Below are positions 24,501 through 59,972 of a DNA stretch of 64,000 nt, one piece after another. The position numbers and the translations under genes are program-made. Numbering within the stretch: the first letter of the stretch is position 1; the number at the start of each line of letters is the position of its first letter. The stretch lies in assembly GCA_009784725.1 (NCBI GenBank), contig WQXS01000006.1, forward strand, positions 1 to 64,000, given 5' to 3'. The stretch is from Oscillospiraceae bacterium (lineage in GTDB: Bacteria; Bacillota; Clostridia; Oscillospirales; Oscillospiraceae). Below the pieces are notes generated by a model. It did not search any database, was not told where the DNA came from, and saw nothing but the letters and a program-made list of their open reading frames with translations.

Positions 24501-24605
24501 AAGCAGCAGGGATGCTATTCTATACTTTTAGTATCTCAGTCAGTTCCGTGTCGGTTGCCGGAATTCCCTCGATACTAAAAGTATAGAATAGCATCCCTGC
24601 TGCTT
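24501..24605. repeat. Perfect 35-bp inverted repeat with 35-nt loop
   Basis: The arms at 24501-24535 and 24571-24605 are perfectly complementary over 35 bp. The loop contains GTGTCGGTTGCCGGAATTCC. A 28-nt stretch covering the loop end and stem foot (24548-24575) recurs, inverted and identical, inside mtaB at 56820-56847. It lies directly after the GH5 gene and may also act as a transcript end, although no good T-run follows. Confidence 0.85.
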
Positions 24606-33176: not shown

Positions 33177-33339
33177 GGTGTTGTGATTTGTTCAGGGTGG
33201 CTTAGGGTTAATTAAATTAATTTCCTTTCGCTCAGATGAAACGTCCTATTTCAACAGAGCGCCCCTCAGCGTCCATGCTTCGGTGTGCGAAAACTAATTT
33301 AACTAACCCTAAACCACCCTCAAAACAAATCACAACACC
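33177..33339. repeat. Large palindromic element, copy B
   Basis: Long arms (ggtgttgtgatttgtt... and its complement, about 38 bp with a few mismatches and a 2-nt bulge) enclose a core running from CTTTCGCTCAGATGAAACGT to CATGCTTCGGTGTG. The core has a CGCTC/GAGCG pairing and a CATGC-TTCG-GTGTG hairpin. It lies just after aspS. The core is nearly identical to that of copy C. Confidence 0.85.
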
Positions 33340-48486: not shown

Positions 48487-48662
48487 GTAGTATTTTATTA
48501 ATTTATTCAGGGTGATTTAGGGTATATAAAATTAATTTCCTTTCGCTCAGAAGAAACGTCCTGTTTATACTGAGCGCCCCTCAGCGTCCATGCTTCGGTG
48601 TGCGAAAACTAATTTTATATACCCTAAACCACCCTCAAAAATAAATTACAACTAAACACTAC
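48487..48662. repeat. Large palindromic element, copy C
   Basis: The arms of about 47-52 nt are complementary with small bulges (private part GTAGT...TATATAAAATT). They flank a core almost identical to copy B: CGCTCA/TGAGCG pairing, GAAACGTCCTGTTTATAC and the TTCG-capped CATGC/GTGTG hairpin. It lies about 110 bp upstream of the M29 aminopeptidase. Confidence 0.85.
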
Positions 48663-50029: not shown

Positions 50030-50222
50030 GGGACAAGTAGTTTATTTGTTTTTGAGGGTGGTTCAGGGGTTGTTAAATTGATTTTCGCACACTCAAGTCA
50101 ATGTCTCGCAAGCGAGCCATAAGACGCCGAGGGGCGCTCTGTTGAAACACGACGTTTCTTCTGAGCGAAAGGAAATTAATTTAACAACCCCTGAATCACC
50201 CTGAACAAATAATACTTGTCCC
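50030..50222. repeat. Large palindromic element, copy D (inverted)
   Basis: The arms start GGGACAAGTA and end TACTTGTCCC, about 45-50 nt, complementary with one bulge. The core is copy B/C type in reverse orientation. The TTCG hairpin region is replaced by a longer piece containing CTCGC-TT-GCGAG. It begins 8 bp after the aminopeptidase stop. Confidence 0.85.
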
Positions 50223-56079: not shown

Positions 56080-57546
56080 TCAAACAATTTCTCCCGTTAT
56101 TTCTCCCGTTAAAATGTCATTTTTTGTACCGGTAATTTTTGTGTTTTTGATGGTGTTTCTTTCGAATTTTCCTTTAATGGATATTTCAAGGTAATTGCTT
56201 GAATGACCTGTTGAAAAGCCGTTTTTTTCCTGTTCGGTTAAAACTTCTGCGGTCTTTCCTATTTGGGATTTTCTAAATTTGCTCGCCATTTCATTTGCAA
56301 CTTGAGCGGCTTTTTTTGCACGTTCTTTTTTTATGTCTTTACTTATATGCCCGGGCATTTTTGCGGCTTTTGTTCCGGGTCTGACCGAATAGGGAAAGAT
56401 ATGCATGTCGGAAAATGCTGCTTTTTGAATAAATTCCAGCGTTTGATTAAACTCGTCTTCCGTTTCACCGGGAAATCCCGTTATCAGGTCTGCCGTGATT
56501 CCGCAGTCCTCGTTTTGAATGTCTTCGTTTTTGTTGTCTTCGTTTTTATTGTTAAAATGCTTTCTGATTGATGTTATGGATTTAAGAACATCCTTTGTTG
56601 TATATTTGCGCCCCATTCGTTTTAGCGTCTCATCACATCCGCTTTGAAGCGAAAGATGAATGTGCTTGCAAAGATTGGGTATTTTCGATAACTCTTTGCA
56701 AAACCCGTCTGTCAAAACCGAAGGGTCAAGTGACCCAAGCCTTAGTCTTGCATCGGGCGCTGCGTTTGCGATTGTATGTAGTGCTTCTATTACGCAAGGA
56801 GGCAGTTCTTCTGCTTTTTGTATCGAGGGAATTCCGGCAACCGACACGTGACACGGGGACGGTTCTACTGTCTCATTATATTTTAATAAATCCCTTCCAT
56901 ACGAAGATATTTCAATCCCCGTAACAACAATTTCCTTATACCCCTGCTCATTTAACTGCTTTGCATACTCTGCAATACGCTCGAGCGGTAAGGACCGTGA
57001 ACGCCTGCGGATATACGGCACTATACAGTATGTGCAGAAATTGTCACACCCGTCTTGTATTTTAAGTAATGCTCTCGTACGGTTGGATGTACTGCCGGGC
57101 GGGAGTTCCTCGAATGCGGGGGTGGAAACAGGGGGACAGGTACACGAAACAGGGGGACAGGTACACTGCTTCCTATCACCGTAAATAGGAAGCAGTGTAC
57201 CTGTCCCCCTGTTTCCACCCTCTTCAACCATTTCAATAAACCCAAGCCTGTCGGAAGTGCCGTTTACTAAATCAGCACCAAGTTCAGTAACAAAATCAGG
57301 TTCCAGCTCGGAATAACAGCCAAGAACAGCAATTAGTGCATCCGGCTCCAACTTTTTCATACGCCTTATAAGCTGACGGGATTTTCTTTCGCTTTCGGCG
57401 GTTACTGCGCAGGTATTTAGAATGCAGACATCCAAGCCCGCTCCGAGAGAGCCGGACTCATGCCCCCGCTCACTTAAAACCCGCTCCATTGCTTGCGATT
57501 CATATTGATTAACCTTGCACCCGAGTGTGGTGATACAAAATCTCAT
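56080..57546 (-). CDS. mtaB: tRNA t6A37 methylthiotransferase MtaB with in-frame repeat insertions
   Basis: This is a radical-SAM enzyme that adds a methylthio group to t6A at tRNA position 37. It has 488 residues, longer than the usual 430-450. The N-terminal methylthiotransferase domain has TLGCKVNQYESQ. The radical-SAM motif is CDNFCTYC, and a TRAM domain ends the protein. Two extra in-frame stretches are encoded by palindromic repeats: RKQCTCPPVSCTCPPVS between the first two domains, and about ETVEPSPCHVSVAGIPSIQK inside the SAM domain. A third, NKNEDNKNEDIQNED, comes from a tandem repeat. All Cys ligands are intact, so the enzyme is probably active. Confidence 0.92.
   Translation of the reverse strand: MRFCITTLGCKVNQYESQAMERVLSERGHESGSLGAGLDVCILNTCAVTAESERKSRQLIRRMKKLEPDALIAVLGCYSELEPDFVTELGADLVNGTSDRLGFIEMVEEGGNRGTGTLLPIYGDRKQCTCPPVSCTCPPVSTPAFEELPPGSTSNRTRALLKIQDGCDNFCTYCIVPYIRRRSRSLPLERIAEYAKQLNEQGYKEIVVTGIEISSYGRDLLKYNETVEPSPCHVSVAGIPSIQKAEELPPCVIEALHTIANAAPDARLRLGSLDPSVLTDGFCKELSKIPNLCKHIHLSLQSGCDETLKRMGRKYTTKDVLKSITSIRKHFNNKNEDNKNEDIQNEDCGITADLITGFPGETEDEFNQTLEFIQKAAFSDMHIFPYSVRPGTKAAKMPGHISKDIKKERAKKAAQVANEMASKFRKSQIGKTAEVLTEQEKNGFSTGHSSNYLEISIKGKFERNTIKNTKITGTKNDILTGEITGEIV
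56820..56872. repeat. Repeat fragments inside mtaB (shared 28-mer plus GGACGGTTCT unit)
   Basis: The 28-nt sequence at 56820-56847 is identical, inverted, to 24548-24575. It is followed at once by GACA-CGGGGACGGTTCTAC-TGTC, a small GGACGGTTCT hairpin. Both lie in the mtaB reading frame without breaking it. Confidence 0.75.
57121..57218. repeat. Perfect 31-bp hairpin with tandem copy inside mtaB
   Basis: The arms at 57146-57176 and 57185-57215 are perfectly complementary over 31 bp with an 8-nt loop. A further direct copy of GAAACAGGGGGACAGGTACAC at 57125-57145 precedes the first arm. The whole block is translated in MtaB. Confidence 0.88.
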
Positions 57547-57569: not shown

Positions 57570-57594
57570 TGTCAGTAGAACCGTCCCCGTGACA
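57570..57594. repeat. Small palindrome with AGAACCGTCC core, first of two
   Basis: TGTCA/TGACA encloses GTAGAACCGTCCCCG, in the divergent gap between mtaB and the cysteine desulfurase gene. Confidence 0.55.
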
Positions 57595-57597
57595 TTC

Positions 57598-57632
57598 AAA
57601 CTTGACAGACGGACGGTTCTCCCGTCAAGTTT
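57598..57632. repeat. Small palindrome with GGACGGTTCT core, second of two
   Basis: AAACTTGAC/GTCAAGTTT is a perfect 9-bp stem around AGACGGACGGTTCTCCC. The core is inverted relative to the copy just before it. The stem is unrelated to that copy. Confidence 0.65.
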
Positions 57633-57674
57633 TGCCTTGATGTTTTAAATAATATCATATATTATCATAAACAT

Positions 57675-58874: not shown

Positions 58875-59972
58875 ATGAACGATAACTTAAACCCTGTAAA
58901 AATAACCCTCCCTGAAACTGCACAAGAGAACCGTCCCCCTGTGCTCCCTGTGCTTATTGCTATGAGTGGGGGTGTTGACAGTACTGTTGCTGCTTTGCTT
59001 ATGCGGCAGGCGGGTTATGATTGCAGCGGTGCGACAATGAAGGTGTTTGATGGCGGTGATAAAACCGTTGCAGAGGCCGGGGCTGTTGCCGATGCGCTGG
59101 GGATAGAGTTTTATGAGTTTGATTTGACGAAGCAGTTTGCGGAGCTTGTCATCAACCCGTTTATAGCTGATTACCGAAGCGGCTGCACACCGAATCCCTG
59201 TGTAACCTGTAACAGGTATCTTAAGTTCGGTCTTTTCGCGGAAAAAGCCTCAGAGCTTGGAATGAACGCAATTGTAACGGGTCATTATGTTCAAACGGAA
59301 GTTGATGCAAACGGACGTTACCTGCTGAAAAAAGGCTCGGACTTAACTAAAGACCAGAGCTATGTTTTGTATTCATTAACACAAAAGCAACTCGCTTTTT
59401 CAAAGTTTCCGCTCGGTTGCCTCACAAAAGCACAGGTGCGTGAAATTGCAGCCGGGTCGGGTATAATAAATGCCGGCAAAAGCGAGAGCCAGGATATATG
59501 TTTTATCCCCGATGGCGACTATAACAAATTTATAAATGATTATACAGGTGAATTGCCAAAAACCGGTAGATTTGTCGATATAAACGGCAATGATTTAGGT
59601 CAAAGCAAAGGGATATCCTCATATACAATCGGACAGCGCAGAGGTCTCGGACTTTCAATGCCGCATCCCCCTTATGTAATCGAACTTCGCCCCGGGGACA
59701 ATACAGTTGTCATCGGAAAGGAAGATATGTTATATTCAAAATCACTTACCGCAGGTGATATTAACCTGATTACTTCCGATAAAATTAACGCACCCTTTAA
59801 GGCTCAGGTCAAAATACGTTACTCTGACCCCGGACATCCTGCCACAGTCGAACAAACCGGTGACGATTCATTGAGAATCGAGTTTGATAAGCCGCAAAGA
59901 GCAATCACTAAAGGGCAGGCAGCCGTAATTTATGACGGCAACACAGTAGTGGGCGGCGGCACAATAACATAG
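58875..59972 (+). CDS. mnmA: tRNA-specific 2-thiouridylase MnmA with repeat-derived N-terminal extension
   Basis: This enzyme thiolates U34 of Lys, Glu and Gln tRNAs. It has 365 residues, ATP-binding SGGVDSTVAALL and catalytic Cys residues in NPCVTCNRY and ESQDICF. The first 25 residues before LIAMSGG are an extension whose codons include a GGACGGTTCT-type palindrome (58920-58944). If unnecessary, translation could also begin nearer the P-loop. It is coupled to the desulfurase gene. Confidence 0.93.
   Translation: MNDNLNPVKITLPETAQENRPPVLPVLIAMSGGVDSTVAALLMRQAGYDCSGATMKVFDGGDKTVAEAGAVADALGIEFYEFDLTKQFAELVINPFIADYRSGCTPNPCVTCNRYLKFGLFAEKASELGMNAIVTGHYVQTEVDANGRYLLKKGSDLTKDQSYVLYSLTQKQLAFSKFPLGCLTKAQVREIAAGSGIINAGKSESQDICFIPDGDYNKFINDYTGELPKTGRFVDINGNDLGQSKGISSYTIGQRRGLGLSMPHPPYVIELRPGDNTVVIGKEDMLYSKSLTAGDINLITSDKINAPFKAQVKIRYSDPGHPATVEQTGDDSLRIEFDKPQRAITKGQAAVIYDGNTVVGGGTIT
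58920..58944. repeat. Small palindrome with AGAACCGTCC core at the 5' end of mnmA
   Basis: GCACA/TGTGC is a perfect 5-bp stem around AGAGAACCGTCCCCC. It lies within the translated N-terminal extension (residues about 16-23). Confidence 0.7.

Follow-up and report, generated by a model that had tools for sequence, protein, structure and literature searches.

Rickettsia palindromic elements (RPEs) enter housekeeping genes in frame (PMC10969869), with members of RPE-4, RPE-6 and RPE-7 substituting for each other at one site in orthologues (PMC3767692). Intragenic insertion is also described for GTAG-/CGTC-tagged REPs, in Opitutus terrae, Rickettsia conorii and others; REP dimers inside open reading frames encode 20-30 residues there, and two Xanthomonas recB genes carry different REPs at approximately the same site (PMC3733652). 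The main text of that paper contains neither "Clostrid-" nor "Firmicutes". Here we describe a REP-like repeat family in an Oscillospiraceae bacterium, starting from the gene mtaB in the window, i.e. the whole stretch of 64,000 nt that was analysed. The features are as follows.

56080-57546, minus strand: mtaB (tRNA t6A37 methylthiotransferase), host of the inserts; 488 aa, TIGR01579 above cut-off, PF00919 and PF04055
57120-57220, unstranded: insert 1, a REP-like head-to-head dimer with an extra left unit (units at 57132 plus, 57153 plus and 57195-57208 minus)
57146-57176, plus strand: left arm of the perfect 31-bp hairpin, from an inverted-repeat comparison of the window
57185-57215, plus strand: right arm of the same hairpin, from the same comparison
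56814-56848, plus strand: insert 2a, a truncated copy of a second repeat family (core GAGGGAATTCCGGCAACCGACACGGAACTGACTGA) with about 10 other genomic copies
56849-56875, plus strand: insert 2b, a single REP-like unit GTGACACGGGGACGGTTCTACTGTC, absent in relatives
56509-56550, minus strand: third in-frame addition, a short tandem repeat (NKNED) encoding NKNEDNKNEDIQNED, absent from relatives
57571-57641, unstranded: REP-like units just upstream of mtaB, in the spacer to the divergent cysteine desulfurase gene
58922-58946, minus strand: REP-like unit read as ENRPPV, at the N-terminal end of the next ORF (58875-59970)
24501-24605, unstranded: full intergenic copy of the second family, with 35-bp perfect arms around the core

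The mtaB product scores 363 bits against TIGR01579 (cut-off 357). A sequence-only reading of this DNA had claimed that the gene carries a perfect 31-bp hairpin with an added direct copy, and a 28-mer followed by a repeat unit, both preserving the frame, and all of this was borne out. The 31-nt arms 57146-57176 and 57185-57215 are 100% complementary, and 57120-57145 pairs with 57195-57220 over 26 nt, again at 100%, representing the extra direct copy of the outer hairpin arm. The unit GGGGACAGGTACAC occurs three times at insert 1 and, with up to two mismatches, matches the window four times versus 0.08 expected; chance expectations for such long motifs, as obtained from shuffled sequence, are at most 0.08. 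The RNA of 57100-57240 folds at -76.2 kcal/mol (z -9.65). Rfam gave only sub-threshold matches, nearly all of them microRNA families at the perfect hairpin, and an Rfam identity was rejected. In insert 2, the 28-mer at 56820-56848 is shared with a repeat at 24547-24567 (0 expected), within a 35-nt stretch matching the intergenic hairpin 24547-24581 at 97%, and it is followed by GTGACACGGGGACGGTTCTACTGTC, which is a GGGGACGGTTCT unit. The 488-aa reading frame is open across both repeat-derived segments. Insert 1 falls between the UPF0004 and radical SAM domains and encodes about residues 109-142, and inserts 2a and 2b jointly encode about residues 225-245 (to ~250 in the alignment), in a loop directly after the GIEISSYG stretch. 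The third addition, NKNEDNKNEDIQNED, had been missed in the earlier reading. The neighboring ORF 58875-59970, whose ENRPPV is encoded by the unit at 58922-58946, contains a SGGVDSTVAALLM motif and is MnmA-like by eye.

When the window protein was aligned with 26 MtaB proteins from named Clostridia MAGs and genomes, insert 2 and the third addition were absent from all 26, and residues about 225-250 and 333-346 were found only in the window protein. The linker at 109-148 is longer than in most of these relatives, with insert 1 enlarging what is a variable linker. Because none of the 26 homologues has the second or third segment and the linker is shorter in most of them, these peptides are not ancestral to the aligned family, and the homologue check proposed in the earlier reading speaks for an origin from repeats. 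The alignments of congener MtaB proteins agree, except for two congeners, G009 and G005, which carry repeats of the same kind but different sequence at both positions. As both hold same-kind repeats there, at least some of the insertion sites are old or recurrent, which speaks against simply recent insertion. In an AlphaFold2 model built with the 26-relative alignment (mean pLDDT 86.7), pLDDT falls below 50 only at residues 121-141 and 223-245, which are the two inserts; both are thus modeled as disordered loops in an otherwise confident structure, insert 1 between domains, in agreement with the loop placement proposed before.

The REP-like unit comprises 27 nt, stem-GGGGACRGKTnnn-stem, in which a 7-bp stem encloses the conserved loop. 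The consensus is AAGACAG-GGGGACGGTTCTn-CTGTCTT, and there are subfamilies, for example GAAACAG-GGGGACAGGTACA-CTGTTTC, whose stems co-vary, both sides changing together. Exact GGGGACRGKTNNNNTGT matches number 157 in the own genome (G000) versus 0 for the reversed control, and 291, 94 and 58 in the congeners G009, G002 and G012, the last being 64% complete, while most other congeners and relatives have few or none. All 30 dimers in G000 are oriented head to head (+- 30, -+ 0), as are nearly all in G009 (+- 49, -+ 1), at a dimer length of 40-110 nt, and the mobile form is probably this head-to-head dimer. Such dimers were detected in 90 of 391 sampled Clostridia genomes, the maximum being 175 in one genome, and the reversed control partly equals counts of one or two per genome. 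The richest genome met, with 175, is G372, which belongs to the same family and another genus. A subfamily in G009 (e.g. L237, L246, L254) forms dimers of exactly 64 nt, GGGGACGGTTCTCCTGACAA...TTGTCAAGAGAACCGTCCCC, with a variable inner part at fixed length, and all those met were extragenic. Four core strings of the repeats found no match in the relevant literature searched.

The distribution of the family was analyzed in 242 kb of the own genome, consisting of the window and stretches around matches, with clusters defined from exact or near-exact matches. Among 76 clusters, 41 are intragenic (at least 45 nt inside an ORF of at least 150 aa), compared with 81% of random window positions, and dimers are present in 22 of these 41 and in 8 of the 35 others. 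Besides mtaB, no fewer than two dozen genes have been invaded in frame, many of them encoding housekeeping enzymes that would carry additional loop peptides, and the search for the same repeats in other genes was answered by dozens of cases. These include recG, pheT, aroC, copA, rimO, truB, tgt, pyrF, mnmE, purL and hdrA, as well as a phosphohexomutase and a hydantoinase; gene names outside the window were mostly assigned by sight, and for aroC, tgt, pyrF, truB and the phosphohexomutase a comparison with structurally solved proteins confirmed them. The flanking pairs of the 35 non-intragenic clusters, compared by eye, gave no case of a gene split by a repeat. The segments might alternatively be ordinary variable linkers or low-complexity expansions whose DNA match is coincidental or ancestral. 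The insert 1 linker indeed differs in length in all relatives and insert 3 is a plain tandem repeat, but the DNA of inserts 1 and 2 matches hundreds of copies, including intergenic ones and copies on both strands of unrelated genes, the 31-bp hairpin is perfect, and insert 2 is missing from every named relative. The DNA identity with intergenic copies refutes this explanation for inserts 1 and 2, and overall we regard it as hardly credible.

All six frames of the repeat unit are free of stop codons, a property shared by 6% of shuffled sequences. One frame, which reads QGDGS/EPSPC and is hydrophilic with mostly small or polar residues, is used in 27 of 38 intragenic clusters in G000 (one third expected, p=2e-6) and in 15 of 29 in G009 (p=0.03). 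This bias makes it probable that the insert peptides are translated and subject to selection, and it argues that copies in other frames (GTVLL, GRFFC etc.) have more often been removed. Some yeast mitochondria contain hairpin inserts that are bypassed, and in principle the inserts in mtaB could likewise be skipped, by RNA removal or by ribosomal bypassing of the hairpin, leaving the enzyme unchanged. The very stable mRNA hairpin (-76 kcal/mol) would suit such a process. It is nevertheless very unlikely, as the ORF is open across the inserts, the strong bias to a single hydrophilic frame would be needless under bypassing, and no frame-breaking copies were seen within genes in the clusters sampled.

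Comparisons within the genus were made on MAG data, and as proteins of its members are only roughly 50-80% identical, the borders of the inserts are approximate. Empty orthologous sites were found in congeners for recG, aroC, copA (two sites), the phosphohexomutase, truB and tgt, and the site of mtaB insert 2 is empty in relatives as well. The hydantoinase site is empty in more distant congeners, where the empty form reads LWxGIKNG-xIxTVATDHCPF. On the other hand, the corresponding position in G009 is occupied by repeat peptides in mtaB (two sites), hdrA, the hydantoinase, a gatA-like gene, mnmE, an AMP-ligase, rimO (second site) and pyrF, and 6 of 13 comparable G000 sites are shared with it, a count that leaves out the G009 loci fetched for their dimers. 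The occupants of shared slots belong to different subfamilies in different species, and new units lie within or against truncated older ones. We read these shared positions as probable old tolerated slots that were refilled over time, the alternative being repeated independent hits on a few tolerant loops. We tentatively consider, as a possibility somewhat short of even, that loops of essential enzymes serve as long-lived landing pads, in which the slot is kept through speciation and the occupant is replaced by the active subfamily of each species. If this is true, the same surface loops of housekeeping proteins would be rewritten again and again by a mobile element.

An enzyme that may move such repeats was sought among PF01797 proteins. 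G002 and G009 encode proteins of this family of about 250-270 aa, as does G028 from outside the genus; the three align, with the HUH and Tyr regions in common, and those of G002 and G009 reach 75 bits against NF047646, the REP-associated tyrosine transposase, at a cut-off of 80. The two congener genes are located as follows.

L109:4181-4981: RAYT gene of G002, flanked by inverted REP-like units, namely GTGAACGCGGGGACGGTTCTTTTGTTCA and its perfect inverse
L110:2242-3003: RAYT gene of G009, lying between plus units and minus units

An ORF beside the RAYT gene of G009 reads through tandem units (RQRDGSSVLRRQRDGSS). By exact GGGGACRGKTNNNNTGT counts, the carriers of the long PF01797 protein rank first (G009) and third (G002) in repeat number among 19 genus genomes. 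A transposase encoded in the own genome had been considered and was rejected, as neither the PF01797 query nor that with the congener RAYT found such a gene in the assembly (98.4% complete, 99 contigs). This reflects either loss or a gap between contigs, and the copies in this genome are therefore immobile now or reliant on the missing gene. We infer that a RAYT mobilized them.

The second family differs in layout. Its full copy at 24501-24605 and the loci L041-L049 have a 35-nt asymmetric core and arms of 25-38 bp, which are perfectly or near-perfectly complementary within a copy and differ from copy to copy. It is sometimes nested in REP-like dimers, as in aroC and hdrA, and its copy L052 has another palindrome in its core. 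The window also contains another interspersed repeat of about 140 nt (33186-33325, 48501-48646 and 50043-50214), with copies 79-89% identical and in both orientations. For the REP-like family, hairpin arms run perfectly into locus-specific sequence at aroC (C1:70423), copA (C1:124059), rimO (C2:123901) and xdh (C13:13435), and the locus-specific outer arms of some G000 copies are GTTGC/GCAAC in aroC, GAGC/GCTC in copA and GCAAGGCAGGG in rimO. The arms at aroC, copA and xdh would fit an element inserted at the center of a small palindrome of the host, with no duplication, but arm extension is rare in G009, and nesting of new units within older ones describes several cases better.

Without a dedicated transposase, the repeats could also have spread through gene conversion at hairpins or through template switching during replication, and this would agree with the lack of a RAYT in the own assembly, with arms that are perfectly complementary yet different between copies, in the second family too, and with truncated units that abut new ones. 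However, the repeat is abundant in two congeners that possess RAYT genes with inverted flanking copies, and dispersal is needed to explain the many scattered sites at which relatives have no repeat. We consider this alternative unlikely. The explanation that we favor, with a probability of roughly 0.78 for the whole, is that the segments are REP-like palindromic elements moved by a RAYT and tolerated in frame, with some sites acting as landing pads. The elements would be non-autonomous, and the RAYT-type (Y1/HUH) transposase moving them would be one that congeners possess and that is lost or missing from the own assembly. As the unit lacks stops in all six frames and encodes mostly small or polar residues, in-frame copies in surface loops and linkers would be tolerated and translated, whereas frame-breaking copies or those in a hydrophobic frame would be purged by selection. 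Some of the tolerated sites may then become landing pads, in which residents are replaced or nested by newer subfamilies.

Palindromic in-frame invasion of housekeeping genes, best known in Rickettsia, is thereby extended to a lineage of gut Clostridia, together with an associated transposase family, so that in vitro tests of how such inserts arise become feasible. The empty, old and renewed slots across the genus represent a natural insertional scan of loop tolerance in essential enzymes, and the process would be a route for mobile DNA to create protein segments. For annotators and structural biologists, it means that QGDGSS...EPSPC segments in Clostridia proteins are to be taken as mobile DNA, not as conserved motifs.

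The parallel to the Rickettsia elements drawn in the sequence-only reading is valid for the effect and does not extend to the DNA family. As with RPEs, short palindromes lie in frame in many unrelated housekeeping genes, in loops that tolerate the peptide, and a site can be occupied by different repeat groups in orthologues (PMC3767692). Unlike RPEs, from which the family is set apart by published length and layout (100-150 nt; PMC3767692, PMC10969869), it has 27-nt units, 40-110-nt dimers and a GGGGAC loop, its hosts are Clostridia, i.e. another phylum than that of Rickettsia and Wolbachia, and it is RAYT-linked in relatives. The likeness to REP/BIME (REPIN) sequences and their RAYT (TnpA-REP) lies in stem-loops at high copy, opposite pairing and a RAYT gene with inverted flanks in congeners (PMC2817692, PMC3116915, PMC8266576). 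The palindromic unit of 27 nt, with its 157 exact matches, is within the 20-50 nt of REPs, and the congener PF01797 proteins match NF047646 (75 bits, cut-off 80). In contrast to REP/RAYT systems, there is no conserved GTAG/CGTC tag (of 129 units, 4 have GTAG and 2 have CGTC in their flanks), the loop is conserved and not the stem, and about half of the sampled clusters are intragenic, whereas REPs are mostly intergenic. The REPs of PMC3733652 come close in having ORF-internal dimers and differing occupants at a shared site, but their tag and stem-loop layout are different. We therefore call the repeat a RAYT-linked, REP-like family that is closest to REP/RAYT and not a member of the RPEs, "REP-like" rather than plain REP because it has neither the GTAG/CGTC tag nor the extragenic location usual for REPs. 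Intragenic REPs and the sharing of slots are already known elsewhere, whereas the Clostridia family, its scale and its frame bias appear to be new.
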